In this document: piece after piece, positions 26,963 through 44,292 of the stretch
Layout: every line of letters starts with the position of its first letter
Position numbering within the stretch: position 1 is the stretch's first letter
Origin: Sulfurihydrogenibium sp. YO3AOP1
Lineage (GTDB): Bacteria > Aquificota > Aquificia > Aquificales > Hydrogenothermaceae
Reading direction: 5' to 3'
NCBI RefSeq assembly: GCF_000020325.1
Contig: NC_010730.1
Location: forward strand, 732,001-796,000
Length of the DNA: 64,000 nucleotides
Notes under the pieces: generated by a model
Told to the model about the DNA's origin: nothing
The model's database searches: none
Seen by the model: the letters and a program-made list of their open reading frames with translations, nothing else
Program-made: the position numbers and the translations under genes

Positions 26963-27014
26963 TTAAAAAAATTTAACGTAGTTTTAATTAAAATAAAGAT
27001 TTTAGTGTTATACT
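26963..27014 (+). promoter_or_regulatory. Pho-box-like operator and promoter for the GGDEF-EAL-PhoX operon
   Basis: TTAA (26963), N6, TTAAC (26973), then TTTAATTAAA (26983-26992) and a -10 box TATACT at 27009-27014, 46 bases after the first TTAA. The same layout occurs at 31364, 36992 and 38445. It lies inside the longest open frame of the next gene, which supports the shorter start at 27050. Confidence 0.6.
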
Positions 27015-27049
27015 CCTACTATAAAAAACCGTTAATTAGGCGGTGTATC

Positions 27050-28081
27050 GTGAATTTAGATTTTGACAACAGAGAAATTTCTCAAGCTTCCAGTGATGAG
27101 GATCATGATTTTACGCTTAAAACAATAGCTAATAAGACCCCTTTCATTTATGGAGATACAAATGCTTTGGAAGCTTACTACATTATTATTCAGAATAGTA
27201 CAACTAATATTATCCCTGTTGTAGACCAAGATCTTAGAGTTATAGGACAGATACAAAGAATCAGGTACATAGAAAATATTTATTTCGGTAGGTTTGGTTA
27301 CGGTATATATCTTAATGCTAAAAGGAGAATAAAAGATATCATGGAACAGCCCGATATAATTTTTGATGTAAATATTAAAGCAGAAAAAGTGGCATTAAAA
27401 ATAAACAATAGAGAAGAATTTAGAAAACACGATGATATTATAGTCGTTGAAGATAATAAATATTATGGTACTGTTAAAGTTCATGACTTGATGGAGCTTT
27501 TAACTAAAAGAATGCTTCAATTAGCAAGGGATTTAAACCCTTTAACCGGTTTACCAGGGAACTGGGCTTTAAGAAAGTATATTGAAGAAAGACTAAAAAG
27601 GGAAGGTTCTTTTGATGTTATTTATTTAGATATTAATAATTTTAAGCCTTATAACGACCACTACGGGTTCTTGTTGGGCGATAAAGTAATTTTTATTATT
27701 GGTGAGATTTTAAAGAAAATAAAAACAGAATTTAATAATGTTAAACCTTTCCACCTTGGTGGAGATGATTTTATAATAGTTGCACCATACGAAGAAGGAG
27801 AGAAAATATCAAGGTTAATAATAGATAGATTTGAAACCTTTTTGCCAGACCTTCACGAAAAAGATTTTGAAGTAGGTTTTTATAAATCCATAGATAGAGA
27901 AGGAAAAGTAAAAAATTTTCCTCTACTATCTATAAGCTGTGCAATCGTCCCCGTAAAAGAAAATTCAATCAAAAATTTTGCACATTTAGCATCAGTGGCA
28001 GCAGAGATAAAACACGCAGCAAAATCTTTAGCTAAATCTTCTGGAAAATCTGCAATATTCGCTAACAGAAGAAAAATATAA
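27050..28081 (+). CDS. CBS-like/GGDEF protein with degenerate GGDDF motif
   Basis: The protein of about 343 residues has two parts. Residues 20-155 resemble a CBS pair (TPFIYGDTNALEAYYIIIQN, NIIPVVDQDLRVIGQI, DDIIVVEDNKYYGTVKVHDL). Residues 165-340 are a GGDEF domain (NPLTGLPGN, DVIYLDINNFKPYND, HLGGDDF). The active-site motif reads GGDDF at 237-241 instead of GGDEF/GGEEF, so cyclase activity is doubtful; it may bind GTP or act as a sensor. GTG 27050 with AGGCGG upstream is preferred over a TTG at 26951, which lies ahead of the -10 box. An EAL protein and PhoX follow with 18- and 19-base gaps, indicating one operon. Confidence 0.82.
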   Translation: MNLDFDNREISQASSDEDHDFTLKTIANKTPFIYGDTNALEAYYIIIQNSTTNIIPVVDQDLRVIGQIQRIRYIENIYFGRFGYGIYLNAKRRIKDIMEQPDIIFDVNIKAEKVALKINNREEFRKHDDIIVVEDNKYYGTVKVHDLMELLTKRMLQLARDLNPLTGLPGNWALRKYIEERLKREGSFDVIYLDINNFKPYNDHYGFLLGDKVIFIIGEILKKIKTEFNNVKPFHLGGDDFIIVAPYEEGEKISRLIIDRFETFLPDLHEKDFEVGFYKSIDREGKVKNFPLLSISCAIVPVKENSIKNFAHLASVAAEIKHAAKSLAKSSGKSAIFANRRKI

Positions 28082-28099
28082 CATAAAAGGAGTCTTTCA

Positions 28100-28891
28100 A
28101 TGATAGATATCTTTAATCCTGAAAATTTAGATGCGTATTTTCAGCCAATAGTAGATATGAAAAACATGAAAGTTGTAGGCTTTGAAAGTCTGATTCGTGG
28201 AATCAATAGAGAAAATGGAGAAATTCTGTCTCCAAAAATATTATTCGAAAAAGCTAAGAAGGATAAAGTAATAACAGAATTCGATAGGCTTTGCAGAGAG
28301 CTTGCTTTTAAAAAATACAAAGAGTTCGGTCTTGATAAGGATTATTTTTTGTATGTAAACATTAGCAGTGAAGCTGTAGATTCTTTTTCTATAGGTACAA
28401 ATTGGATTAAAAGGAGATTAGATTACTATGGAATCAATCCAAGGTTAGTAGTTGTAGAAATAAACGAAGCAAAAATAAATATTACTGAAAACCTTTTAAG
28501 CGTTGTAAAAAATTATAAAGAGTTTGGTCTTAATATAGCCATAGATGACTTTGGAACAGAGCATTCTAACTTTGATAGATTGGTTTATATAGATTTCAAC
28601 TTTTTAAAGTTAGCAAGTGTTTTAATACAAGATGCTGACAAGAATGAAAAAAAGCTTAAAATGTTAGAAGTTATGAATTTTTTAGCCTATAAATTTGATA
28701 CTTACTTGATAGCTGAAGGTATTGAAAGTTTTGAAGAGGCAAAAATACTGTCAGATTTAGGCATAAATTACCATCAAGGATTTTTTTACTGTAAACCCAT
28801 GTCAAACCCATTAGAGGCAATAAATATAGTTGCAAATATATTAAATAATCAATTAGAAGATAAATTGGCAAAATCTCTAATTATAAAATAA
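28100..28891 (+). CDS. EAL-domain protein (c-di-GMP phosphodiesterase-like) with ESL motif
   Basis: The 263-residue protein is a stand-alone EAL domain: DAYFQPIVDMKNMKVVGFES, then NISSEAV, EINEAKIN, AIDDFGTEHSNF, LKLAS, IAEGIES and HQGFFYCKP. The signature triplet is ESL at 29-31, keeping the metal-binding Glu. The DDFG pair, the Lys of LKLAS, the Glu of IAEGIES and the Gln near the end are all present, so hydrolysis of c-di-GMP is possible. There is no membrane or sensor segment. It is sandwiched between a GGDEF-like protein and PhoX in one operon, with AAAAGGAG before its ATG. Confidence 0.85.
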   Translation: MIDIFNPENLDAYFQPIVDMKNMKVVGFESLIRGINRENGEILSPKILFEKAKKDKVITEFDRLCRELAFKKYKEFGLDKDYFLYVNISSEAVDSFSIGTNWIKRRLDYYGINPRLVVVEINEAKINITENLLSVVKNYKEFGLNIAIDDFGTEHSNFDRLVYIDFNFLKLASVLIQDADKNEKKLKMLEVMNFLAYKFDTYLIAEGIESFEEAKILSDLGINYHQGFFYCKPMSNPLEAINIVANILNNQLEDKLAKSLIIK

Positions 28892-28910
28892 CTTTGAGAG
28901 GTCTTAAATA

Positions 28911-30839
28911 ATGGATAACTACTTTGGAGACATTTTAGAAAAAGCCATATCAAGAAGAGATTTATTTAAGATTGGCGGGATATTAGGGCTTTCTGGACTG
29001 TTTAACATTGGATATTCTAAGGATATTCAAACATCTGTAAAAAACTATAAAAACCTATCTTTTATAACCATTTATCCTAATACAAAAGATGAAATAACAA
29101 TTCCGGAAGGTTATGAATGGAAAATTTTAATCAAATGGGGAGACCCGTTAGATAACAACGATGGAATAAACTATCAGAATGTTTTTGAAAAAGTATCTAA
29201 CTACGATGTTGAAAGGCAAAAGTACTGCTTTGGATACAATAATGATTTTGTAGGATTTTTTAACTTTAAAGATAAAACTCTTTTGGTTGTAAATCATGAG
29301 TACACTAACCCAGAACTTATGTTTAAGGATTACTTTCTAAGAAATCAGCCAACGAAAGAAGAAGTTGATTTTATGATTCAGGCCCATGGGCTTTCTATAG
29401 TTGAGATTAAAAAGAATAAAGTTGGATTTTTTGAGTATGTAAAAGGCTCTAAATTCAACAGAAGAATAACAGCAGAAACAAAAGCTTTAATATCCGGACC
29501 TGCGAAAGGACATAAACTTCTCCAAACATCTTACGACCCAAACGGCGAGTTTGTGTATGGAACTATTGCCAACTGCTCAGCAGGAAAAACTCCATGGGGA
29601 ACGGTTTTATCCTGTGAAGAAAACTTCCATTCTTACTTTGGAGGAGATTTAGAAAACATAGACCCAGAAAAAATGACAGATTATAAAGTTGTTGAAATCC
29701 ATCAAAGATACGGCGTTCCGGATATTAAATATCATGGTTATTACGGATTTTACAAATACTATGACAGGTTTAACGTTGAAAAAGAACCAAACGAAGCAAA
29801 TAGATTTGGCTGGGTTGTGGAAATTGACCCATTAAACCCAAACAGACCACCGATTAAAAGAACAGCCCTTGGAAGGTTTAAGCATGAGGCGGCAAATACT
29901 GCTATCGGGAAAGATGGGAGAGTAGCAGTTTATATGGGAGATGATGAAAGATATGAGTATCTTTACAAATTTGTAACTAAAAACAAGTTTGACCCAAATG
30001 ATAGAGAGAAAAATCTTAACCTGTTAGATGAAGGAACGCTATACGTGGCTGTGCTTAACGATGACTTTACAGGGCAATGGGTAGAAATTGCATCAGCTTA
30101 CTTAGAAAATGGAAAGTATATAATAAAGCCAAATCCAAAGCTACCAAACGTATTCCAAGAAGACCCTGCTTTATGTTTCATTAACACAAGAAAGGCTGCT
30201 GATTTATTAGACGCTACAAAAATGGACAGACCGGAAGGCGTGGAGTATAACCATATTACTAAATCTGTTTTTACTGCCATGACTTACAATGAAAAAAGAA
30301 AAGCATCAGAAACAAACGCAGCAAACCCAAGACCAGAAAATACAATGGGACATATTATAGAAATCATTGAAGAAAATCATAATCCTACTTCAACAAAATT
30401 TAATTGGAGAATAGCTTTGATGTGTGGGGACCCAAAAGCAAACTCCTATAATAACAAGCTTTTTATCTACGGACAGCTTGCTAAGTCTGATGTTCCACCA
30501 ATATCAGCACCGGATAACATAGCCATTGACAAAGCCGGCAATGTATGGATAGCAACTGACGGTAATCCTGGATTAGATAGACTAAAATCAAATGATGGTG
30601 TTTATGTGTTAAATCCATTTACAAAAGAGCTAAAGATGTTTTTATCAGGTGTGCCAAACTGTGAAATATGCGGTCCTGAATTTTCAGATGACTATAAAGT
30701 ATTTTTTTGTGCAATCCAACATCCAGGAGAAGGAGATTTAGATGCTACAAAATGGCCATATCTAAACGACAACTGTCCAATCCCAAGACCAGCAGTTATA
30801 CAAGTTAAAAGAAAAGATGGATTAGAGATTTATTTATAA
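28911..30839 (+). CDS. phoX: PhoX-family alkaline phosphatase, Tat-exported
   Basis: The 642-residue protein begins with a Tat-type leader (SRRDLFKIGGILGLSGLF, twin Arg at 15-16). The body matches PhoX (DUF839): TVLSCEENFHSYFGG, RFKHEAANT, VYMGDDERYEYLYKFV, RPEGVEYN, PDNIAIDKAGNVWIATDG. PhoX enzymes are Ca/Fe-dependent phosphomonoesterases released outside the inner membrane to free phosphate from organic esters. It starts at ATG 28911, 19 bases after the EAL gene. A GGGTGATGAGT/ACTCATCGCCC inverted repeat follows. Its promoter is most likely the Pho-box-like site at 26963. Confidence 0.9.
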   Translation: MDNYFGDILEKAISRRDLFKIGGILGLSGLFNIGYSKDIQTSVKNYKNLSFITIYPNTKDEITIPEGYEWKILIKWGDPLDNNDGINYQNVFEKVSNYDVERQKYCFGYNNDFVGFFNFKDKTLLVVNHEYTNPELMFKDYFLRNQPTKEEVDFMIQAHGLSIVEIKKNKVGFFEYVKGSKFNRRITAETKALISGPAKGHKLLQTSYDPNGEFVYGTIANCSAGKTPWGTVLSCEENFHSYFGGDLENIDPEKMTDYKVVEIHQRYGVPDIKYHGYYGFYKYYDRFNVEKEPNEANRFGWVVEIDPLNPNRPPIKRTALGRFKHEAANTAIGKDGRVAVYMGDDERYEYLYKFVTKNKFDPNDREKNLNLLDEGTLYVAVLNDDFTGQWVEIASAYLENGKYIIKPNPKLPNVFQEDPALCFINTRKAADLLDATKMDRPEGVEYNHITKSVFTAMTYNEKRKASETNAANPRPENTMGHIIEIIEENHNPTSTKFNWRIALMCGDPKANSYNNKLFIYGQLAKSDVPPISAPDNIAIDKAGNVWIATDGNPGLDRLKSNDGVYVLNPFTKELKMFLSGVPNCEICGPEFSDDYKVFFCAIQHPGEGDLDATKWPYLNDNCPIPRPAVIQVKRKDGLEIYL

Positions 30840-30863
30840 ATAATGAGCGGCTTAGATAGAGAC

Positions 30864-30951
30864 GGGTGATGAGTGAAATCTATAAGACTTTAAAAAACTC
30901 ATCGCCCATCATTTTTTAAAGATAAAGTCTTTGCTTCCTTCAGGATGATAA
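30864..30951. other. Long hairpin and degenerate repeat after phoX
   Basis: GGGTGATGAGT at 30864-30874 pairs with ACTCATCGCCC at 30897-30907 (one G-T pair), and a T-run follows at 30912-30917, so it may terminate phoX transcription. A worn copy of the dispersed palindrome lies at 30923-30951. Confidence 0.5.
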
Positions 30952-31072
30952 GTAAATTAATAATAATCAATCCTTAGATCGAGTGTGCGAATTGCTAATT
31001 TTTTAATTTTTTCATGCAACGAATACGAAAAAGTGAATTATCTAACTTCTCACCTACTCACTTTCTCACTTC

Positions 31073-31261
31073 TCACTTTTTTTTAGTTTTTCTTCCTTTC
31101 TTAGGCTTTTCTTCTATTTTCTCTTCTTTTTTGCAATGTTCAAGAATCATATTCACTATTTCTTCAGCGTCAATCCAGTTTTGAGCAGTTCTTGAATCAT
31201 CTTTGCCAGTAATGTGATAGATCTTTTCTGCAACTATCTTGATCAATTCTTTTTTATTCAT
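31073..31261 (-). CDS. Small DUF2934-like protein with Lys-rich tail
   Basis: The 62-residue protein reads ELIKIVAEKIYHITGKDDS, then QNWIDAEEIVNMIL, the pattern of the short DUF2934 domain (helix, Tyr, Gly turn, WxxAE), followed by an extended tail of Lys and Glu ending KKGRKTKKK. The tail suggests contact with nucleic acid or acidic surfaces, but the function is unknown. ATG 31261 has CTGGAGATG upstream. It is divergent from the TonB receptor gene. Confidence 0.65.
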   Translation of the reverse strand: MNKKELIKIVAEKIYHITGKDDSRTAQNWIDAEEIVNMILEHCKKEEKIEEKPKKGRKTKKK

Positions 31262-31363
31262 TTTTACATCTCCAGAGTGAATAATTGATTATAAAGTTAA
31301 CATAGAAATGTAAAAGTTTTATGAAAATAAAGTTAAGATTTTGAAATGTTATCTCTTGTAGAC

Positions 31364-31416
31364 TTAAATAATTTTAACCATTCTTTCATTAAATCTTAAA
31401 ACTCTATCTTTAAAAT
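31364..31416 (+). promoter_or_regulatory. Pho-box-like operator and promoter for the TonB receptor operon
   Basis: TTAA (31364), N6, TTAAC (31374), then TTTCATTAAA (31384-31393) and a -10 TAAAAT at 31411-31416, exactly 47 bases after the first TTAA. The 31 bases 31371-31401 are identical to 36999-37029 upstream of the porin gene. No -35 hexamer is visible, as expected for an activator-dependent promoter. Confidence 0.72.
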
Positions 31417-31449
31417 AGACAAAAATTTAATCAAAGAGGAGGAAATGCT

Positions 31450-33660
31450 GTGAAAAGAAAAAAGGCTTTAGCACTTTTTTATGCTGCTATGGTAAGTGGT
31501 AGTTTTGTTTATGCACAAGAAACAACTTTAAAAGTTAAAGTCGAAGACCAAACAGGTTTAGAAAAAGAGCTTCCGATTGAAATCAAGAAAAATGTACCGG
31601 CTACCGAAACAACAGTAAAAAAAGAAGAGATTCAAACAAGAGCCGGAGCTGGTTCGGTTAACATCTTTAAGGCTATTGAACTTACTCCATCTGTAAACGT
31701 TCAAACCGATGATGCATATGGACTTAGTGGTGGTAGTGTAAGAATAAGAGGTTTTGACAATACTCAAATTGGAGTAACTATTGATGACATGCCACTAAAC
31801 GACTCAGGAAACTTTGCCCTTTATCCTCATGAGTATGCAGATGTGGAAAATCTTGAGACTATAACTATTACAAGAGGTTCTGTGAACAAAAGGTCTCCTT
31901 TCTATACAGAAATTGGCGGTGCTTTGAAGGTTAGAACTGCTCCACCAAGAAGTAAATTTACAAACTCATTTGGTCTAAAATTTGGTTCTTATAACTTTAA
32001 AAGAGCATTTTACAGATTAGACACAGGATATTTATTTGGAAATAAAAGCCTTCCAAAAATATTCTTCTCTTATTCTCATACAGAAGTTGATAAATGGAAA
32101 GGGCCTGGTGGTGCACCTCAGTACAGAGACCACTATACCTTAGGAATAGCAGAAACAATCGGAATTCTTGATTATGAATTTTACTATGACAGAAACGTTC
32201 AATTAAACTATTTCTACAGACCGTTTACATACGCAGAAACCAAAGACGGAAATATTTTTAGAAGTAGAGATTATACTAATAAATTAATCCCGGGTAATAC
32301 TGCCAATAACACACAGTACTATGAATTCTACCAAAACCCTTATACAAACCAGCAATATAGAGCCATCTTTAATCTTAACTTTACAGATAAGATATCCCTT
32401 AATTTTAAGCCTTACATGTGGATTGGTAGAGGAAGCGGAACGAGTGCAACATCTTCTGGATCTAATGTTTTCTTTAGAGAATCTTTTAACTATACAGATA
32501 GACCAGGATTTACAACCGAGTTAAAGGTGGATTTACCGTATAATTCTAAATTTTTTTTAGGATACTGGTATGAATACGCAGACTTAAAACAATGGCAACC
32601 ATCAAGATTGGTAAATATAAATTCAGATGGTACTTATACATTGAATAATTCTACATCTTTTAGATACAACTATATTCAAAGAACAAAGACAACAACAAAT
32701 ACTCCTTACATTTCATTTGAATCAAAAGAGCTTTTAGGTAAATTAGATTTTAACCTCGGTTTTAGATTTGCAAGCATTAAAAGAAAGTTTAACGATTATA
32801 GTACGACTGGACTGCCTTATTATCCAGAGGATGGTGTTTACGACGACCCAAGATTAACCAAAAATCAAACTACATCATACGAAAAAACATACAAAAAAAC
32901 TTTACCTAACATTGGATTAGGATTTAGCGTTTTAGACAATCTATATCTTTATGCTTCTTATGCTAAGAACTTTAGAGTACCTCAGAATTTTTTGGGAACT
33001 ATACCGACAAGCAGATCAGCGCAATTTGTAGCTGACCAACTAAAGCCTGAAGAGTCTGATAGCTATGATTTAGGTGCAAGATTAACTTACGATAAATTTT
33101 ACATTGCTCCAACTGCTTATATTGTAAGATACAAAAACAGATTAATCAGAGTTGCTGACCCAACTGACCCAAATTTACTATACATTAGAAACGCCGGAAA
33201 AGTTGATGCTAAAGGGTTTGAGTTAGAAGTGGGAGCAAATCCTATGCCAAAAACTAACATTTACGCATCCTTCTCATACAACGAAGCCAAATTTAAAGAC
33301 GATGTGTTTTATGATGGAAACACTAAATATGACATTAAAGACAACAGCGTTCCAGACACTCCAAGGTATATGGTCAAATTAGGTTCTCGTTTTAATCTAT
33401 ACGATTTTAAAGTCTCTCCAAGCATCCAGTTTATAGGTTCAAGATATGGTAATTTCACAAATACAGAAAAAGTTGATAACTACGCAATTGTAAACCTATC
33501 GGCTACAAGAAAGATTTATAAATACTTTGACCTTTACATGGACGTAGTCAACTTAACAAATCAAAAATACGTAGGTAGAATAAGTCCAGGGACAGCGTCA
33601 GGTACTTACTACGCAGGAACACCGTTCACTATATCTTTTGGAATCAACGGGAGGTTTTAA
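31450..33660 (+). CDS. TonB-dependent outer-membrane receptor
   Basis: The 736-residue protein has a signal peptide (ALALFYAAMVSGSFVYAQE, cleavage near residue 22). A plug domain follows (about 45-160; GGSVRIRGFDNTQIGVTIDD, then the ITRGSVN strand), then a 22-strand barrel region that ends in an aromatic C-terminus (FTISFGINGRF). The GTG start at 31450 follows GAGGAGG. The next gene starts on the base after the stop codon, and ExbB, ExbD, TonB and PhoD follow without gaps. Together with the Pho-like promoter, this suggests uptake of a phosphorus-containing ligand; the substrate is an inference from context. Confidence 0.9.
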   Translation: MKRKKALALFYAAMVSGSFVYAQETTLKVKVEDQTGLEKELPIEIKKNVPATETTVKKEEIQTRAGAGSVNIFKAIELTPSVNVQTDDAYGLSGGSVRIRGFDNTQIGVTIDDMPLNDSGNFALYPHEYADVENLETITITRGSVNKRSPFYTEIGGALKVRTAPPRSKFTNSFGLKFGSYNFKRAFYRLDTGYLFGNKSLPKIFFSYSHTEVDKWKGPGGAPQYRDHYTLGIAETIGILDYEFYYDRNVQLNYFYRPFTYAETKDGNIFRSRDYTNKLIPGNTANNTQYYEFYQNPYTNQQYRAIFNLNFTDKISLNFKPYMWIGRGSGTSATSSGSNVFFRESFNYTDRPGFTTELKVDLPYNSKFFLGYWYEYADLKQWQPSRLVNINSDGTYTLNNSTSFRYNYIQRTKTTTNTPYISFESKELLGKLDFNLGFRFASIKRKFNDYSTTGLPYYPEDGVYDDPRLTKNQTTSYEKTYKKTLPNIGLGFSVLDNLYLYASYAKNFRVPQNFLGTIPTSRSAQFVADQLKPEESDSYDLGARLTYDKFYIAPTAYIVRYKNRLIRVADPTDPNLLYIRNAGKVDAKGFELEVGANPMPKTNIYASFSYNEAKFKDDVFYDGNTKYDIKDNSVPDTPRYMVKLGSRFNLYDFKVSPSIQFIGSRYGNFTNTEKVDNYAIVNLSATRKIYKYFDLYMDVVNLTNQKYVGRISPGTASGTYYAGTPFTISFGINGRF

Positions 33661-34098
33661 ATGGTTGAGATTAAATCAGCAATCTTCGTGCTAATGTTTA
33701 TTGTTTTTGTGTATGGGAACTTTATCATATTTCAGAAATTTTTCATGATGAAAAAGTCAAACGGAAATACTAACCCGGTGGATGCCCTCCACTGGGCTAA
33801 AGATTTTAAAAAAGGATTATGGTTTTTAGATTTTGCAGCTACTACATCACCGCTACTTGGACTCTTAGGAACTGTAATAGGTCTTATCATAGCTTTCCAA
33901 GAGCTTGGTAAAAAAGGTGTATCGGGAGCCGGAGAAATAAGCGCCGCAATTGGATTAGCCCTTGTTGCTACTGCAATAGGTATAGCATTATCATTATGGT
34001 TTTATCTATGGTTCAAATTCTTTAATTCCAAAATCCAAGAAAAGAAAGAAGAGATTAAAAGCAGGATATTGATGGAGGTTTTGAATGAACAAGCATAA
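33661..34098 (+). CDS. exbB: ExbB/TolQ-type proton channel protein
   Basis: The 145-residue protein has three membrane segments (about 6-27, 61-84 and 97-121) and the MotA/TolQ/ExbB signature (TTSPLLGLLGTVIGLIIAFQ, then SAAIGLALVATAIGIALSLW). It forms the inner-membrane proton channel that energises TonB with ExbD. It is shorter than most ExbB proteins, with almost no cytoplasmic loop. It begins immediately after the receptor gene and overlaps exbD by 14 bases. Confidence 0.88.
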   Translation: MVEIKSAIFVLMFIVFVYGNFIIFQKFFMMKKSNGNTNPVDALHWAKDFKKGLWFLDFAATTSPLLGLLGTVIGLIIAFQELGKKGVSGAGEISAAIGLALVATAIGIALSLWFYLWFKFFNSKIQEKKEEIKSRILMEVLNEQA

Positions 34099-34516
34099 AA
34101 AGCTTTCATTGCTTTACCTTCTTGAAGAGCAGGAAAACGAAAAGGAAGAAATTCAAATAATTCCTATGATAGACGTTATGCTATTTCTACTCACCTTTTT
34201 CATTCTTTATACTCTTAATGTACTGCCTATGTTGTATCAAAATATTAAACTCCCTACATCATCTACGGTAGAACAAAACCAAATTAACGAGCCTTTGAAA
34301 GTGTATATAGACAAAGAAGGAAATATTAAAACAGAAAAATTCGGAACGGGATTAGAAGCATTAAAGCAGTATCTTAAAACAGTTAAATCTCCGGAAGAAG
34401 CTATAGTTATTCTAATTCCAGACAAAGACGCAACAGCTCAATCTCTGATGATAGCAATAGACACTCTTAAAGAAAACAAAATAACAAAAATATCTATCGC
34501 CGGTGAAAAGAAATGA
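34085..34516 (+). CDS. exbD: ExbD/TolR-type biopolymer transport protein
   Basis: The 143-residue protein has an N-terminal cytoplasmic tail, one membrane helix (about 22-45: IPMIDVMLFLLTFFILYTL, with the proton-carrying Asp25 or its neighbour in MIDVML), and a periplasmic domain (about 60-143) ending ITKISIAGEKK. It is overlapped by exbB upstream by 14 bases and overlaps tonB by four (ATGA), so translation is coupled. Confidence 0.88.
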   Translation: MNKHKKLSLLYLLEEQENEKEEIQIIPMIDVMLFLLTFFILYTLNVLPMLYQNIKLPTSSTVEQNQINEPLKVYIDKEGNIKTEKFGTGLEALKQYLKTVKSPEEAIVILIPDKDATAQSLMIAIDTLKENKITKISIAGEKK

Positions 34517-35268
34517 AATTTTCTGATGATAAAAAATCGGCTTCATTTATTTTTTCTTTGCTTTTTTCTTCATTATCAGCCTATGGAACTTATCTAATTT
34601 TTAATATTAAGCTTCATGAGCCACCAAAACCAACTACCTTTATAGAAATAGTTGAACTTCCGGAAGAAAAACAGGAAATTAAGAAACTGGAGCAACCCAA
34701 AAAACAGATTATAAAAGAAGTTAAAAAAGAAACTCATAAGCCAAAACAACAGCCAAAACAACAGATTATTGAACATAAAAAACCGATAGAGAAACAAAAA
34801 ATTGAAGTGAAGCAAGAAGTTAAGACAGAGGATAAACCGGTAGAACCAATAAAAGAAGAGTCAAAACACAATTTTAAAAAACAAGAAATTGTAGAAAAAC
34901 CACCAGAAATAAAAAAACCTCAACCACCACCCCCACCAAAGCATGAAGAGTCACCTTCACCCCCTCCACTACCAAAAGAGCCTGATAAATCAGCACTTAA
35001 TCAATATTACGCAACCGTTAGAAAAATCATAGAATCCAAAAAACGATACCCAGAAGAAGCAAAAAGAAGGGAAGAAGAGGGAGCTGTTTTAGTTAGATTT
35101 ACCATAGACGAAGATGGTAATGTTAAAGATGTATCACTTGTTAGGTCAAGCGACAGTAACATCTTAGATAAAGAAACTTTAAAGCTTTTAAAGAGCTTAA
35201 AATTTCCGCCACCACCGGAAGGAAAACCTATGACACTAAATTTAGAGATAGAATACAAACTAAACTAA
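34513..35268 (+). CDS. tonB: TonB energy transducer
   Basis: The 251-residue protein has an N-terminal membrane anchor (FIFSLLFSSLSAYGTYLIF), a long Pro/Lys/Glu-rich spacer (about 35-160, with a PPPPPKHEE-type stretch) and a C-terminal TonB domain (RYPEEAKRREEEGAVLVRF, then GNVKDVSLVRSS and LKFPPPPEGKP). It links the proton motive force to the outer-membrane receptor. It is part of the dedicated receptor operon, so this TonB probably serves that receptor. Confidence 0.9.
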   Translation: MKFSDDKKSASFIFSLLFSSLSAYGTYLIFNIKLHEPPKPTTFIEIVELPEEKQEIKKLEQPKKQIIKEVKKETHKPKQQPKQQIIEHKKPIEKQKIEVKQEVKTEDKPVEPIKEESKHNFKKQEIVEKPPEIKKPQPPPPPKHEESPSPPPLPKEPDKSALNQYYATVRKIIESKKRYPEEAKRREEEGAVLVRFTIDEDGNVKDVSLVRSSDSNILDKETLKLLKSLKFPPPPEGKPMTLNLEIEYKLN

Positions 35269-35279
35269 GGAGAAGCAAA

Positions 35280-36857
35280 ATGCTTTTAAGCAGAAGAGAG
35301 TTTATAAGCTTATCATTATCAACCTTATATTTACTTACACATAACCTTGAAGTATTGGCAAGTGATGCAGTAGAAATTTTTGACCTTGGAATTGCAAGCG
35401 GAGACCCAACGCAGGATGGCATTATATTATGGACGAGAATTAATCCAAATATCCACAACCAATTAAAAAAAGACCTTATCTTAGAGATATCACAAAGTCC
35501 AGAGATGAAAGAATCATCAGTCATAAAAATACCCGGATATGAGATTATAAAAGAAAGAGACTGCACAATCAGGCTAACAATAGACAATCTAAAACCAGGA
35601 CAGACTTACTACTACAGATTTACATACGCAGACGTTCCGTCAATGGTAGGTAGGTTTAAAACTCTGCCGGTTGGAGATGTTGAAAACTACAGAATAGGAT
35701 TTGTTACCTGTCAAAACTACGCCGATGGATATTATACAGCATACAGACATTTAGCCAATGAAGATATAGGATTTATCTTACATCTTGGAGACCAAATTTA
35801 TGAGAGAATCTATGGCAAACCAAGAGTACCCGGCAGAAATTTAGCTTTTCCATCAGGTCATAGTATTGCACTTGATTTAGAAGATTATAAATATCTGTAT
35901 ACAACATATTTGTCAGACAAAGATTATCAGCTTGCAAGAGCAATGCATCCATTTATCTATATCTGGGATGACCATGAATATGCAAACGATTACTCATTTG
36001 ACTACGAAAAAGGATTTTATAAACTTCCAAAACATCCTTTTGAAAATGACAGAGAAAAAGTTCTTAACCTAAGAAAAGCTGCAATATTAGCATGGTATTT
36101 TTATACACCTTCAAGGGCTAAATTAAATCTTAACGCTCAAAATCCTTTAGAATGGATCATCATTTATAGAGATTTCAAAATTGGAGAATTAGCACATTTG
36201 ATTTGCTTAGATGAAAGGTCTTACAGAACATCGCAACCTTGCGATAAAAGATACGCATCCGCAGGTTGTGAAGACCAGTATAAAACCTCAATGCTTGGAG
36301 AAAATCAAAAATTCTGGTTTTATGAAAAGCTAAAACAAGGAAATAGTTGGAAAATAGTAGCTAATGAAGTCCAATTTGTACAAGGAAAAATAAACGGACT
36401 TTATGGCTCCTTAGATGCTTGGGATGGATATATAAAAGAAAGACAAGAGATAATAGAATTTTTAAACAAAAATAATATAAACAAATTTGTAGCCCTTACA
36501 GGAGATAGACACGCCGGCTTGATTGCAGAAATACCTACAGAATTTAAAGAAAACTATGAGAAAATCGTGGGAGTAGAGTTTATGACTCCTGCAATATCCT
36601 CGATCTCTGCAGCAGAAGCCAACTGGTGGTAAGATTACGGAGTTAAAGATGCCGATGAATATGCCCAGTTAGAAATAAAACAAAACCCATGGACAAAGTA
36701 TTTAAGCCATAGAGTATGGGGATATTCTATTTTAGATATGGATAAATCATCTGCTAGGTGTCAAATAGTAAGCGTTGACAAATATAAAAAAGACTCAAAT
36801 AAAGAAATAGCAGCAACTTATCAATATATTCCTGGAAAGGGATTAATAAAATTTTAA
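35280..36857 (+). pseudogene. phoD: PhoD-family alkaline phosphatase interrupted by an in-frame TAA
   Basis: The protein starts MLLSRREFISLSLSTLY, a Tat leader (twin Arg at 5-6). The PhoD N-terminal domain follows (FDLGIASGDPTQDGIILWTR), then the metallophosphatase core (VTCQNYADGYYTAYRHLA, LHLGDQIYER, WDDHEYANDY, VALTGDRHAG). It stops at TAA 36630-36632 after AAEANWW, but the same frame continues for 75 more codons with clearly coding sequence (DYGVKDADEYAQLEI ... IPGKGLIKF) to TAA at 36855-36857. One base change from a sense codon explains it. The truncated form lacks only the terminal part, so activity may persist. The gene ends the TonB operon (12-base gap after tonB). Confidence 0.85.
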
Positions 36858-36991
36858 ACAGTTGTTAACAAATTCTAACCATACGTTGGGCAAGAAATTC
36901 AGTAAAAGTAAAAGATTCTTCGCTGGCTTTGGAGCGACAATGTTGATTTTTGGAATAGTCTTCACCAAAGTATGAAATTTTAAAAAAATTA

Positions 36992-37044
36992 TTAACAAAT
37001 TTTAACCATTCTTTCATTAAATCTTAAAATTCATTTGGTATAGT
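36992..37044 (+). promoter_or_regulatory. Pho-box-like operator and promoter for the porin gene
   Basis: TTAAC (36992), N5, TTAACC (37002), then TTTCATTAAA (37012-37021) and a -10 TATAGT at 37039-37044, exactly 47 bases after the first TTAA. A degenerate dispersed repeat lies just upstream (36884-36939) in the 36858-37080 gap. Confidence 0.72.
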
Positions 37045-37080
37045 GATTTACGAATAATATTTTCAGAGGAGGTTATTTAA

Positions 37081-38400
37081 ATGAAGAGAACTTTAGCAGT
37101 GATGGCTCTCTTAGGAGCTGTAGGGCTTGCAAACGCACAAACTATCGAGAACCCCATTCTCAAAAAACTTGTTGAGAAGGGTATCTTAAAAGAAGATGAA
37201 GCTGCAGCAATTGACGAACAGCTTGCACAAGAAGAGGCAGAAAAGGCTAAATACCAAGCTGAAATTGACAAAACAGCAATGGAAGCAAAAGAAAAGTTGG
37301 CAAAACTTGAGAAACAAGGTAGCATGTCATCTCTTTTAACAGGTAAGTTTAAGAAGTTTGAAATTGGCGGAAAGGCTTACTTGGGTTATACTTACCAAAC
37401 TACTAAGAAAAAATACACAGGAATTAACGACTCAGGCGATTTTGAAGCAAGAAGATTTTACTTTGATACAAAGGCTTACATCTCAGACAAAGACTATATC
37501 AGATTTACAACTGATTTAGCTCAAGAAAATAACGTTGGTAGCACAGACAAATCATTAAAACTCAAAATTAAATACGGTTATCTCTACAAAGACATTTCAG
37601 ACTTGATTCCTCACACTGGCTTTGAGTTTGGTATAGTTCATACACCTTGGATTGATTATGAAGAGCATTCTGGATGGTGGTACAGGTCTATAGATAAAAC
37701 ATTTATGGAATCTTCAGATGGTATGGGATTATGGCCATCGGCAGACCTTGGAATTAACTTCAAGACAAAAACTCCGTATGTAACTTCTGAAGTAGGAATG
37801 TTTAACGGAGAAGGTTACGACAAGATTAACACAAGCTCTAAAAACTCATCCAGCTTCCACAACTCTTTTGAAGGTAGAGTAACTTATCACGTATTTGGAA
37901 ACGGAGATAAAAAAGTTAATCCAACAAAAGATCAGTATGCAAACATTTCTTTACACTTAGCAAGCAACATTGGATATAATGATAATAATAACGGTACATA
38001 CACAAATCATACAAATCTTAACCTCTATCACATCCATGCAGTTTATAACCACCCAATGTTCTTAATCGCAGCACAATATGCAAAAACAGATTATAACTCA
38101 TCTTCTCAACAAGCAGGCGATGGATACTCAATAAACGCAGAAGTAAGACCAGTTCAAGATTGGTCCATATTCGGTAGATATGACCATTGGAAGTTTAAGA
38201 AAGAGTTAACACTCGGAAAAGATGCACAAAATAACGATGTCAAAGCAAACAAAAGAGATGCTTACTATTTTGGTGTAGCTTACACTATGAACAAATATGT
38301 AAAATGGATTGCAAACGTTATCAATTATGATTACAAAGGAACTAACCCAGACAACAAAGATAAAACAAAATATATGATAACAGCTGAGCTTAGCTGGTAA
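37081..38400 (+). CDS. Phosphate-selective porin (OprO/OprP-like)
   Basis: The 439-residue outer-membrane protein has a signal peptide (MKRTLAVMALLGAVGLANAQ). A predicted coiled coil follows (about 40-80, rich in Glu, Ala and Lys), then a beta-barrel with FEARRFYFDTKAYISDKDYI and HTGFEFGIVHTPWIDYEE, close to the pattern of the phosphate-selective porin O/P family, ending in a C-terminal aromatic strand (MITAELSW). It probably lets phosphate or polyphosphate cross the outer membrane. Ribosome site AGAGGAGG precedes ATG 37081. It is the only gene of its unit and lies just ahead of pstS. Confidence 0.85.
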   Translation: MKRTLAVMALLGAVGLANAQTIENPILKKLVEKGILKEDEAAAIDEQLAQEEAEKAKYQAEIDKTAMEAKEKLAKLEKQGSMSSLLTGKFKKFEIGGKAYLGYTYQTTKKKYTGINDSGDFEARRFYFDTKAYISDKDYIRFTTDLAQENNVGSTDKSLKLKIKYGYLYKDISDLIPHTGFEFGIVHTPWIDYEEHSGWWYRSIDKTFMESSDGMGLWPSADLGINFKTKTPYVTSEVGMFNGEGYDKINTSSKNSSSFHNSFEGRVTYHVFGNGDKKVNPTKDQYANISLHLASNIGYNDNNNGTYTNHTNLNLYHIHAVYNHPMFLIAAQYAKTDYNSSSQQAGDGYSINAEVRPVQDWSIFGRYDHWKFKKELTLGKDAQNNDVKANKRDAYYFGVAYTMNKYVKWIANVINYDYKGTNPDNKDKTKYMITAELSW

Positions 38401-38444
38401 TCCTACTGCTTTTTGTATGTTTGTGGGAGGGAGAGGGGAAATTG

Positions 38445-38497
38445 TTAAAATTTCTTAACAAAAAATTAATAAAAAATAAACATTTTCATAGTATCAT
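38445..38497 (+). promoter_or_regulatory. Pho-box-like operator and promoter for pstS
   Basis: TTAA (38445), N6, TTAAC (38455), a third TTAA near 38466, and a -10 TATCAT at 38492-38497, exactly 47 bases after the first TTAA. The sequence between diverges from the other boxes, but the spacing is retained. Confidence 0.6.
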
Positions 38498-38526: not shown

Positions 38527-39537
38527 ATGAAAGTTAAAGGCTTGAAAAAGCTTGCAATAGCTGGAATTTTAGCAACATCTACCGCAGCATTAGCGGGAAT
38601 TACAATTACAGGTGCAGGTGCAACATTCCCATATCCAATTTACTCTGCTTGGGCTTATGCATATGAAAAAGCAACAGGAAACAAAGTTAACTATCAATCA
38701 ATTGGTTCTGGTGGTGGTATCAGACAGATCGAAAACAGAACAGTAGACTTTGGTGCATCAGACGCTCCATTAACACCAGAAGAATTAAACCAAAAGAAAT
38801 TACTCCAATTCCCGGCAGTAATCGGTGGAGTAGTTCCAACTTACAACCTACCAGAAGTAAAACAGCCTCTTAACTTTGACGGGAAAGCTCTCTGTTATAT
38901 ATATATGGGTAAAATCACTAAATGGAATGACCCATACTTACAACAATTAAACCCTGGCGTAAATTTACCAGATAGACCAATTACAGTAGTTCACAGGTCT
39001 GATGGTTCTGGTACAACTTGGATCTGGACTAACTACTTATCAAAAGTTTGTCCAGAGTGGAAAGAAAAGGTTGGATACGGAACATCTGTTAACTGGCCAA
39101 CTGGTGTAGGCGGAAAAGGAAACGAAGGTGTAGCTAACTACACTAAGAGAATGAGAGGAGCAATAGGATACGTAGAATATATCTATGCAAAACAAAACAA
39201 TATGCCTGCTGGAAAAGTTAAAAACAGAGAAGGAAACTTTGTTGCTCCATCTATGGAAAGCTTCCAAGCAGCAGCTGCTAACGCTAAATGGGACAAAAAG
39301 AAACATTTCTACGAAGTATTAACAGACCAACCGGGTAAAAATTCATACCCAATATCTGGAGCTACATTTATTTTACTGGCAAAAGATAGACCAGAAAACT
39401 CAAAAAAAGCAGTTATGTTCTTTGACTGGGCATTTACAAAAGGAGATCAAGAAGCTGCAAGATTAAACTATATCCCATTACCACAAAACGTGAAAGATTT
39501 AATCAGATCATACTGGAAAGAAAATGGATTGATGTAA
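38527..39537 (+). CDS. pstS: Phosphate ABC transporter substrate-binding protein PstS
   Basis: The 336-residue periplasmic protein has a signal peptide (LKKLAIAGILATSTAALAG). Phosphate-binding elements of PstS follow: GAGATFPYPIYSAWA, SIGSGGGIRQIENRTVDFGA, VHRSDGSGTTWIWTNYLS and GYVEYIYAKQ. It captures phosphate for PstCAB. A terminator lies 30 bases after the stop, so pstS is transcribed apart from pstCAB, as expected for a protein needed in excess. Ribosome site ACGGAGG. Confidence 0.95.
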   Translation: MKVKGLKKLAIAGILATSTAALAGITITGAGATFPYPIYSAWAYAYEKATGNKVNYQSIGSGGGIRQIENRTVDFGASDAPLTPEELNQKKLLQFPAVIGGVVPTYNLPEVKQPLNFDGKALCYIYMGKITKWNDPYLQQLNPGVNLPDRPITVVHRSDGSGTTWIWTNYLSKVCPEWKEKVGYGTSVNWPTGVGGKGNEGVANYTKRMRGAIGYVEYIYAKQNNMPAGKVKNREGNFVAPSMESFQAAAANAKWDKKKHFYEVLTDQPGKNSYPISGATFILLAKDRPENSKKAVMFFDWAFTKGDQEAARLNYIPLPQNVKDLIRSYWKENGLM

Positions 39538-42623: not shown

Positions 42624-43289
42624 ATGTTAATAGAACCAAGATTAAATGAAATCAAAGAAAGGCTTTTAAAAATGGCTGAAATTGTAGAAAACATGATAGA
42701 TAACTCAATAAAAGCTATCATAGAGCATAACCCGAGGTATTTAAAATATGTTGAAGAAAATGAAAACATAGTTGACCAGATGGAAGTAGAAAATGAATCA
42801 TTGATAATAACAACCATGGCAAGATATCAGCCGGAGGCAAAGTATTTAAGAATGCTCGCAATGGACTTGTTTGTAAACAGAGACCTTGAAAGAATAGGAG
42901 ACCATGCAGAAAATATAAAAGAACATGCCCAGTCTATATTAACAAAACCAAAGTTAAAAGAATATGTAGATTTACCAAAAATGACTGAGTTAACAATACA
43001 AATGCTTAAAGATGCAATAAAAGCTTTTGCAGAAAATGATACAAATCTTGCAAGAGATGTAATAAAGAGAGACGACATAATAGATGCATTAGAAGACCAG
43101 ATAATAAGAGAGTTATACACTTACATGGTAGAAGACCCATCAACAATAAAAGTTGGATTAAGACTTATAGACGTTGTTAAAAACATAGAAAGAGTTGCAG
43201 ACATAGCAACAAACTTAGCAGAAGAAGTTATTTACATGAAAGAAGGAAAAATGCTAAGACATCAGGAATTAGACGAAAATGGAAAGTAA
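42624..43289 (+). CDS. phoU: Phosphate signalling regulator PhoU
   Basis: The 221-residue all-helical protein is made of two similar three-helix repeats with the metal-binding patterns MAMDLFVNRDLERIGDHAEN and LRLIDVVKNIERVADIATNL. PhoU links the Pst transporter to the PhoR kinase and represses the Pho response when phosphate is ample. It overlaps phoR by 11 bases. Ribosome site GAAGGAGG. Confidence 0.95.
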   Translation: MLIEPRLNEIKERLLKMAEIVENMIDNSIKAIIEHNPRYLKYVEENENIVDQMEVENESLIITTMARYQPEAKYLRMLAMDLFVNRDLERIGDHAENIKEHAQSILTKPKLKEYVDLPKMTELTIQMLKDAIKAFAENDTNLARDVIKRDDIIDALEDQIIRELYTYMVEDPSTIKVGLRLIDVVKNIERVADIATNLAEEVIYMKEGKMLRHQELDENGK

Positions 43290-44292
43290 TACCCTAAAAG
43301 ACCAGCATTTAGATTATGAAATACTAATAAGTTTTCTTGACTATTTAAAAGAAGGCGTCATTGTCGTTGATGAAAATAAAAATATCTTATTTGTAAATAG
43401 ATTTGCACAGAGATTTTTAAATACTCCAGATTACGAAGGTAAACATTTTAAAGAAGTTATAAATGATAATTATCTTTATTCTATAATTTCCCATGAATAC
43501 GATAAAGACACAAAGTTAGAAGTAAATATAGATAGTAGTAAATACTTGGTAAATGTATATCACATTAAAGGCAAAAAAATAATTCATCTGCAAGATATAA
43601 CGCCATTTGAGATCTACAAACAAGCAAAGAAAGACTTTGTATCTAACGTATCTCATGAATTAAAAACTCCAATCTCTGTTTTAAAGTCTGCTATGGAAAC
43701 AATAGAAGAGGAAATAAAAGACTCTAACATCCTGAAATTTGTAGACATGGCAAAAAAAAGAATAAATCAAATGGACTCTCTCATAAACGACCTTCTTATA
43801 CTTGCAAGACTCGAATCTCAAGAAGATTTGGTAAACAAGAAAAAATATTTATTATACAAACAAGTTGAAGACATCTTTGAAGATTTGCAACATTTAACAA
43901 AAGATAAGAACATAAAACTTAAAAATAATGTTCCCAAAGATTTTGAAGTTTATGCAGACGAACAAAAATTAAGCATAGCACTAAAAAATTTAATTGAAAA
44001 TGCAATAAAATATAACGTTCAAAACGGCACAGTAGAAGTAAATGCAAAAACTGATGGAAAGTATGACATTATAAGCGTTATAGATACAGGCATAGGAATA
44101 CCACCAGAATCAATTCCTCTTGTGTTTGAAAGATTTTACAGAGTTGATAAATCAAGAAGTAGGAACATCGGCGGAACAGGTTTAGGGCTATCTATCGTTA
44201 AACACATCACAGAAGCCCATAAAGGCAAAGTATGGGTAGAAAGTCAAGTAGGAAAAGGAAGTAAATTTTATATTAAAATACCAAAAACGTGA
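43279..44292 (+). CDS. phoR: PhoR-like histidine kinase without membrane segments
   Basis: The 337-residue kinase has a PAS domain (about 15-100; LDYLKEGVIVVDENKNILFV), a HisKA dimerisation domain (FVSNVSHELKTPISVLKS, phospho-His126), and a HATPase domain (LIENAIKYNV, DTGIGIP, FERFYRVDKSRSR, GGTGLGLSIVKH). The usual PhoR N-terminal membrane anchor is absent; the start overlaps phoU by 11 bases and no longer start exists in that frame context. It probably reads phosphate through PstB/PhoU. No phoB-type OmpR-family regulator lies in the window. Confidence 0.9.
   Translation: MESNTLKDQHLDYEILISFLDYLKEGVIVVDENKNILFVNRFAQRFLNTPDYEGKHFKEVINDNYLYSIISHEYDKDTKLEVNIDSSKYLVNVYHIKGKKIIHLQDITPFEIYKQAKKDFVSNVSHELKTPISVLKSAMETIEEEIKDSNILKFVDMAKKRINQMDSLINDLLILARLESQEDLVNKKKYLLYKQVEDIFEDLQHLTKDKNIKLKNNVPKDFEVYADEQKLSIALKNLIENAIKYNVQNGTVEVNAKTDGKYDIISVIDTGIGIPPESIPLVFERFYRVDKSRSRNIGGTGLGLSIVKHITEAHKGKVWVESQVGKGSKFYIKIPKT

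Follow-up and report, generated by a model that had tools for sequence, protein, structure and literature searches.

A putative PhoB-type Pho box shared by four phosphate-island promoters of Sulfurihydrogenibium and by relatives in the Aquificales

Introduction

Among described phosphate-control sites, the closest are those of cyanobacteria and enterobacteria. The SphR box of Synechocystis PCC 6803 is CTTAACCT, with 3-bp linkers and at least three tandem repeats (PMC1906773), and the Pho box of E. coli consists of CTGTCAT in 11-base direct repeats (PMC4415409). A search of the open-access literature found no description of a Pho box from the Aquificales or Aquificae.

The window analyzed here is a 64,000-base stretch (positions 732001-796000) of the 1,838,442-base genome of Sulfurihydrogenibium sp. 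YO3AOP1; coordinates are those of the window unless marked as genome positions. A first-pass annotation had proposed that four units of a phosphate island share a Pho box, a single activator and a -10 box without a -35, and had set the box apart from the enterobacterial one by a 10-base period. Our scans support the shared box, the one activator and the promoter architecture, but not the period as a distinction. On sequence grounds, the four promoters are very probably PhoB-dependent (probability about 0.92).

Results

Four promoters of the phosphate island

The units downstream of the four sites, with the likely sensor side, are as follows.

27050..30839, + strand: unit 1, GGDEF-CBS protein, EAL protein and PhoX phosphatase (Pfam)
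31450..36632, + strand: unit 2, TonB-dependent receptor, ExbB, ExbD, TonB and PhoD (Pfam)
37081..38400, + strand: unit 3, porin-like outer membrane protein (Porin_4 match of 26.9 bits, cut-off 27)
38527..39537, + strand: unit 4, PstS phosphate-binding protein
42624..44292, + strand: PhoU and a PhoR-like histidine kinase, probably the sensor side

PstS is followed by PstCAB-PhoU and then the PhoR-like kinase; the GGDEF-CBS protein probably starts at GTG 27050. The candidate promoters are these.

26963..27014, + strand: Pho box and -10 of the GGDEF-CBS/EAL/PhoX unit; half-sites at 26963, 26973, 26984 and 26994; -10 TATACT at 27009-27014
31364..31416, + strand: Pho box and -10 of the TonB receptor-ExbB-ExbD-TonB-PhoD unit; half-sites at 31364, 31374, 31385 (TTCAT) and 31396; -10 TAAAAT at 31411-31416
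36992..37044, + strand: Pho box and -10 of the porin gene; half-sites at 36992, 37002, 37013 (TTCAT) and 37024; -10 TATAGT at 37039-37044
38445..38497, + strand: Pho box and -10 of pstS; half-sites at 38445, 38455, 38466 (TTAAT) and 38477 (TAAAC); -10 TATCAT at 38492-38497

The sequence TTAA-N6-TTAA, from which the first-pass annotation had started, occurs at exactly the four coordinates given there, and the -10 hexamers follow at +46, +47, +47 and +47. TTTMATTAAA at +20 recurs in three sites, as had been claimed, and contains the third half-site. The reported absence of a -35 box also holds, no TTGACA-like hexamer being found 16-18 bases 5' of any -10 (at most 3 of 6 matches). As a description of the motif, however, TTAA-N6-TTAA covers the upstream half alone, two further half-sites (TTMAT and TWAA) not having been separated. 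Aligning the sites gives four half-sites in each: TTAA(C) at 0, TTAAC at +10, TTMAT at +21 and TWAA near +32. The -10 follows at 47, 15 bases from where the last half-site starts. Successive half-sites are 10, 11 and 11 bases apart, so that the three promoter-proximal ones repeat directly in tandem every 11 bases, and the box appears to replace the -35 at a fixed distance from the candidate -10 boxes. Start codons lie 29-36 bases past the end of the -10 boxes.

The 26963 site departs slightly from this scheme: its third and fourth half-sites are one base closer, and with a matrix from other genera (see below) it scores 23.5 bits after one column is skipped; the spacing is standard in its ortholog in a relative (G039). 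The 31364 site is kept in three relatives (G037, G039, G040), the 36992 site in two (G037, G039), and the 38445 site stands 5' of pstS in seven (G034, G036-G039, G014, G007). The c-di-GMP enzymes of unit 1 (GGDEF-CBS and EAL, 26963-28891) share one Pho-box unit with PhoX, which suggests that c-di-GMP is under phosphate control.

The 31 bases said to be identical between the TonB-receptor and porin promoters (31371-31401 and 36999-37029) are exactly so, and nearly all of this identity is also common to G037 and G039. Promoter copying is the probable cause. Extended to all the sites, this would mean that a single island promoter was copied and that their likeness does not stem from selection on a shared binding site; that 31-base identity speaks for it, but the two other island sites, and sites elsewhere, vary in their spacers and keep half-sites and spacing alone, which makes such an account very improbable. 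For the 31-base pair alone copying may be the explanation, and this would not conflict with a Pho box.

Specificity against chance

TTAA-N6-TTAA by itself is not rare, with nine occurrences in the window, and adding a -10 at the right distance gave 55 matches in the genome versus 44 in the reversed control. This loose two-half-site pattern was accordingly rejected for the genome scan as unspecific. Specificity stems from the two further half-sites, TTMAT and TWAA: the 11-11-15 core TTAA-N7-TTMAT-N6-TTAA-N11-TANNNT matched 82 times in 41 genomes of the family, Hydrogenothermaceae, versus twice in the reversed control. A matrix of 13 porin and pstS promoters from other genera, which were located by a model including the window sites, so that their sequences are independent but their choice is not entirely so, placed 31364, 36992 and 38445 at ranks 1, 2 and 3 of 127,896 window positions (33.8, 33.0 and 32.7 bits). 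In 100 windows drawn from a first-order Markov model, the top score per window averaged 9.0 and was never above 18.1; chance is therefore excluded for the full four-half-site motif.

These figures also bear on the idea that the repeats represent AT-rich UP elements, or what an AT-rich genome (35% G+C) would yield by chance. The loose pattern, which barely exceeds its control, fits such an idea; the counts for the full core and the gap between about 33 bits and the scores of random windows do not, nor does the occurrence of the core 5' of orthologous genes in a sister family. Already contradicted by the conserved spacing and conserved target genes, this explanation has next to no probability.

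Matches with E above about 0.02 were not taken as evidence because AT-richness inflates weak matches, and weak matches within coding regions (e.g., genome positions 139267 and 1700601) were discarded. The pstS-pstC gap yielded no conspicuous Pho box among the top matrix matches.

A fifth candidate box, absent from the first-pass annotation, stands back to back with that of the TonB receptor.

31294..31346, - strand: fifth Pho box, divergent; half-sites TTAAC 31336, TTCAT 31325 and TTTAC 31314
31261-31073, - strand: 62-aa ORF behind the fifth box; no known family found

Its weak -10 (TAACTT, 31299-31294, - strand) is about 33 bases 5' of the ORF start. With the other-genus matrix it scored 18.1 bits, next below the three top window matches; because this equals the highest of the 100 Markov windows, the score alone is moderate evidence for a box. 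The fifth box is also found in G037 (E 0.010).

A box at phoB and the candidate activator

When a matrix built from the four sites was run over the whole 1.84 Mb genome, the best non-training match was at genome position 337301 (E 0.006), in the promoter of a gene of the PsiE family; the next gene, at genome position 337789-338484, encodes a PhoB-like regulator. The matching phoB is in this way located outside the window, behind a Pho box of its own. Its product has PhoB as best NCBIfam match, at 231 bits against a cut-off of 296, and is the nearest to E. coli PhoB among six OmpR-family regulators, at 155 bits versus 154 for another (L001); its designation as PhoB is based on operon context, this sub-cut-off best match and a very slim margin over that one other regulator. 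A PhoR/PnpS-like kinase adjoins phoU, so that a PhoB/PhoR pair is encoded, with the regulator match below the NCBIfam cut-off.

The near-equal similarity of L001 raises the question of whether the boxes are bound by one of the five other OmpR-family regulators of the genome, the more so as direct repeats of some 10-11 bases are common targets of regulators of this family. We consider this unlikely. Of the six regulator genes, only the proposed phoB was found to share an operon with a box, with psiE ahead of it, and this box-psiE-phoB operon recurs in six genomes (G000, G037, G034, G035, G038, G040). The boxes, moreover, stand at phosphate genes, and their half-site is like that of known PhoB and SphR sites. 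PhoB thus remains the preferred activator.

Genes behind the box in relatives

If the motif were a Pho box, the first-pass annotation had argued, scanning the genome and its relatives should find it at phosphate genes, and so it proved: boxes lie 5' of phosphate-starvation genes and of phoB. Outside the window, genes were assigned by BLAST to window proteins and by Pfam. Within the family, in several genera, model matches precede pstS, porin, psiE-phoB, TonB receptor, PhoX or GGDEF-CBS genes. Further targets are a P-type ATPase operon, rhodanese, a 61-66-aa CxCG...CxxC protein, an OlsB-like acyltransferase and a PHP/glycosyltransferase protein. The box is carried without an obvious phosphate link by rhodanese, P-type ATPase and pyruvate kinase.

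In the sister family, a second family of the order (f2) and probably the Aquificaceae, sites were found by the core pattern without a matrix, with 18 matches in 56 genomes versus none in the control. Those inspected lie 5' of genes for an outer-membrane-like protein, a TonB receptor (64% identical to that of the window), PhoX (53%) and DUF2334 proteins. The core pattern had no match in the seven genomes of a third family.

Several target groups deserve separate mention. The CxCG...CxxC protein of 61-66 aa stands behind a Pho box in several genera (L155:1578-1763, L113, L115, L140, L168, L196, L136); a Pfam search with the L155 copy gave no match. Boxes at genome positions 1188460 and 1191218 (L159, L156; ortholog L166) mark a cluster that encodes an OlsB-like acyltransferase (PF13444), another acyltransferase, a DUF2334 protein and a PHP/glycosyltransferase protein, which makes it a candidate for lipid replacement under phosphate control; the 1188460 box is weak in G000 (E 0.13). 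DUF2334 genes occur behind the box in f2 too (L180, L181, L183, L186). Two boxes with related flanks, at L069:3639 (+) and genome position 1386275 (-), flank a P-type ATPase/HMA operon region. In one genus, the core motif lies 5' of a pyruvate kinase-like gene, named by eye from its sequence (L193, L195; G004, G002).

The period of the box

The claim that a 10-base period separates this box from the classical one did not survive the counts, the 11-11-15 core having 82 family matches against 8 for 10-10-15. A core with the 10-base period was itself rejected (8 matches versus 0 in the control, 41 family genomes). Ten bases is, instead, the outermost interval: in Hydrogenothermaceae it measures 10 bases in 44 of 62 distinct core sites and 11 in five, most of the loci behind this count having been recruited by a model that already contained the 10-base interval. 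In f2 it is 11 bases in 10 of 13 sites, all found by the core alone. Because the outermost half-site lies 10 bases out in Hydrogenothermaceae and mostly 11 in f2, the 10-base interval is a real lineage feature and not the period of the box.

Discussion

Proposed mechanism

The case for PhoB-dependent promoters draws on the motif, its geometry, the associated genes, conservation and the site 5' of phoB, all observed here; from these we infer the protein bound, its phosphorylation and induction at low phosphate. The tandem box would read TTAAC-N5-TTAAC-N6-TTMAT-N6-TTAAC, with the last core starting 15 bases from the start of a sigma-70-type -10. At low phosphate, the PhoR-like kinase encoded after phoU would phosphorylate PhoB, which would then dock head to tail on the half-sites along a single face of the DNA, the third half-site overlying the -35 position. 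In E. coli, PhoB molecules occupy the half-sites in head-to-tail order and hold sigma where a -35 would otherwise do so. By analogy, bound PhoB would recruit RNA polymerase here by holding sigma instead of a -35, so switching on phosphatases, TonB uptake, porin, PstS and PhoB itself.

A Pho box and a testable phosphate regulon are in this way proposed for an early-branching thermophilic order, PhoB promoter geometry would be common to Aquificales and E. coli, and lipid, c-di-GMP and small zinc-ribbon-like protein genes become newly tied to phosphate starvation. We give about even odds to a wider, joint reading, in which PhoB of the Aquificales runs a broad starvation programme (c-di-GMP enzymes; the OlsB-like acyltransferase/DUF2334/PHP-glycosyltransferase set; the zinc-ribbon-like small protein) and the outermost half-site moved from 11 to 10 bases in Hydrogenothermaceae. 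If this is true, the OlsB-like/DUF2334/PHP-glycosyltransferase set would replace phospholipids, and the move from 11 to 10 would alter the contact of the distal PhoB with its neighbor.

Comparison with known Pho boxes

With the E. coli box the sites have in common the 11-base period, the 15-base distance to the -10 and the lack of a -35, as well as a box 5' of phoB and pstS and porin among the targets. In E. coli K-12, phoA (TATAGT), pstS (TATTTT) and phoE (TAAAAA) have a -10-like hexamer 15 bases from the last half-site core; the phoB promoter has no clear -10 at that distance. The half-sites differ, being TTAAC/TTMAT by consensus and not CTGTCAT, although the last phoE half-site of K-12 is CTTTAAC, i.e., TTAAC. 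Also unlike E. coli, there are usually four half-sites here, and phoB and phoR are not adjacent.

The SphR box shares the TTAAC half-site, the 11-base period, at least three tandem direct repeats and a position 5' of pst and phosphatase genes. It differs in phylum and partly in target set, and the sites described here add a fourth half-site, which in Hydrogenothermaceae lies 10 bases out. The PhoP box of B. subtilis, with its TTAACA-like repeats, is similar in half-site letters and period. Judged by sequence and geometry, then, the Aquificales sites are a predicted Pho box of known kind, with a cyanobacteria-like half-site.
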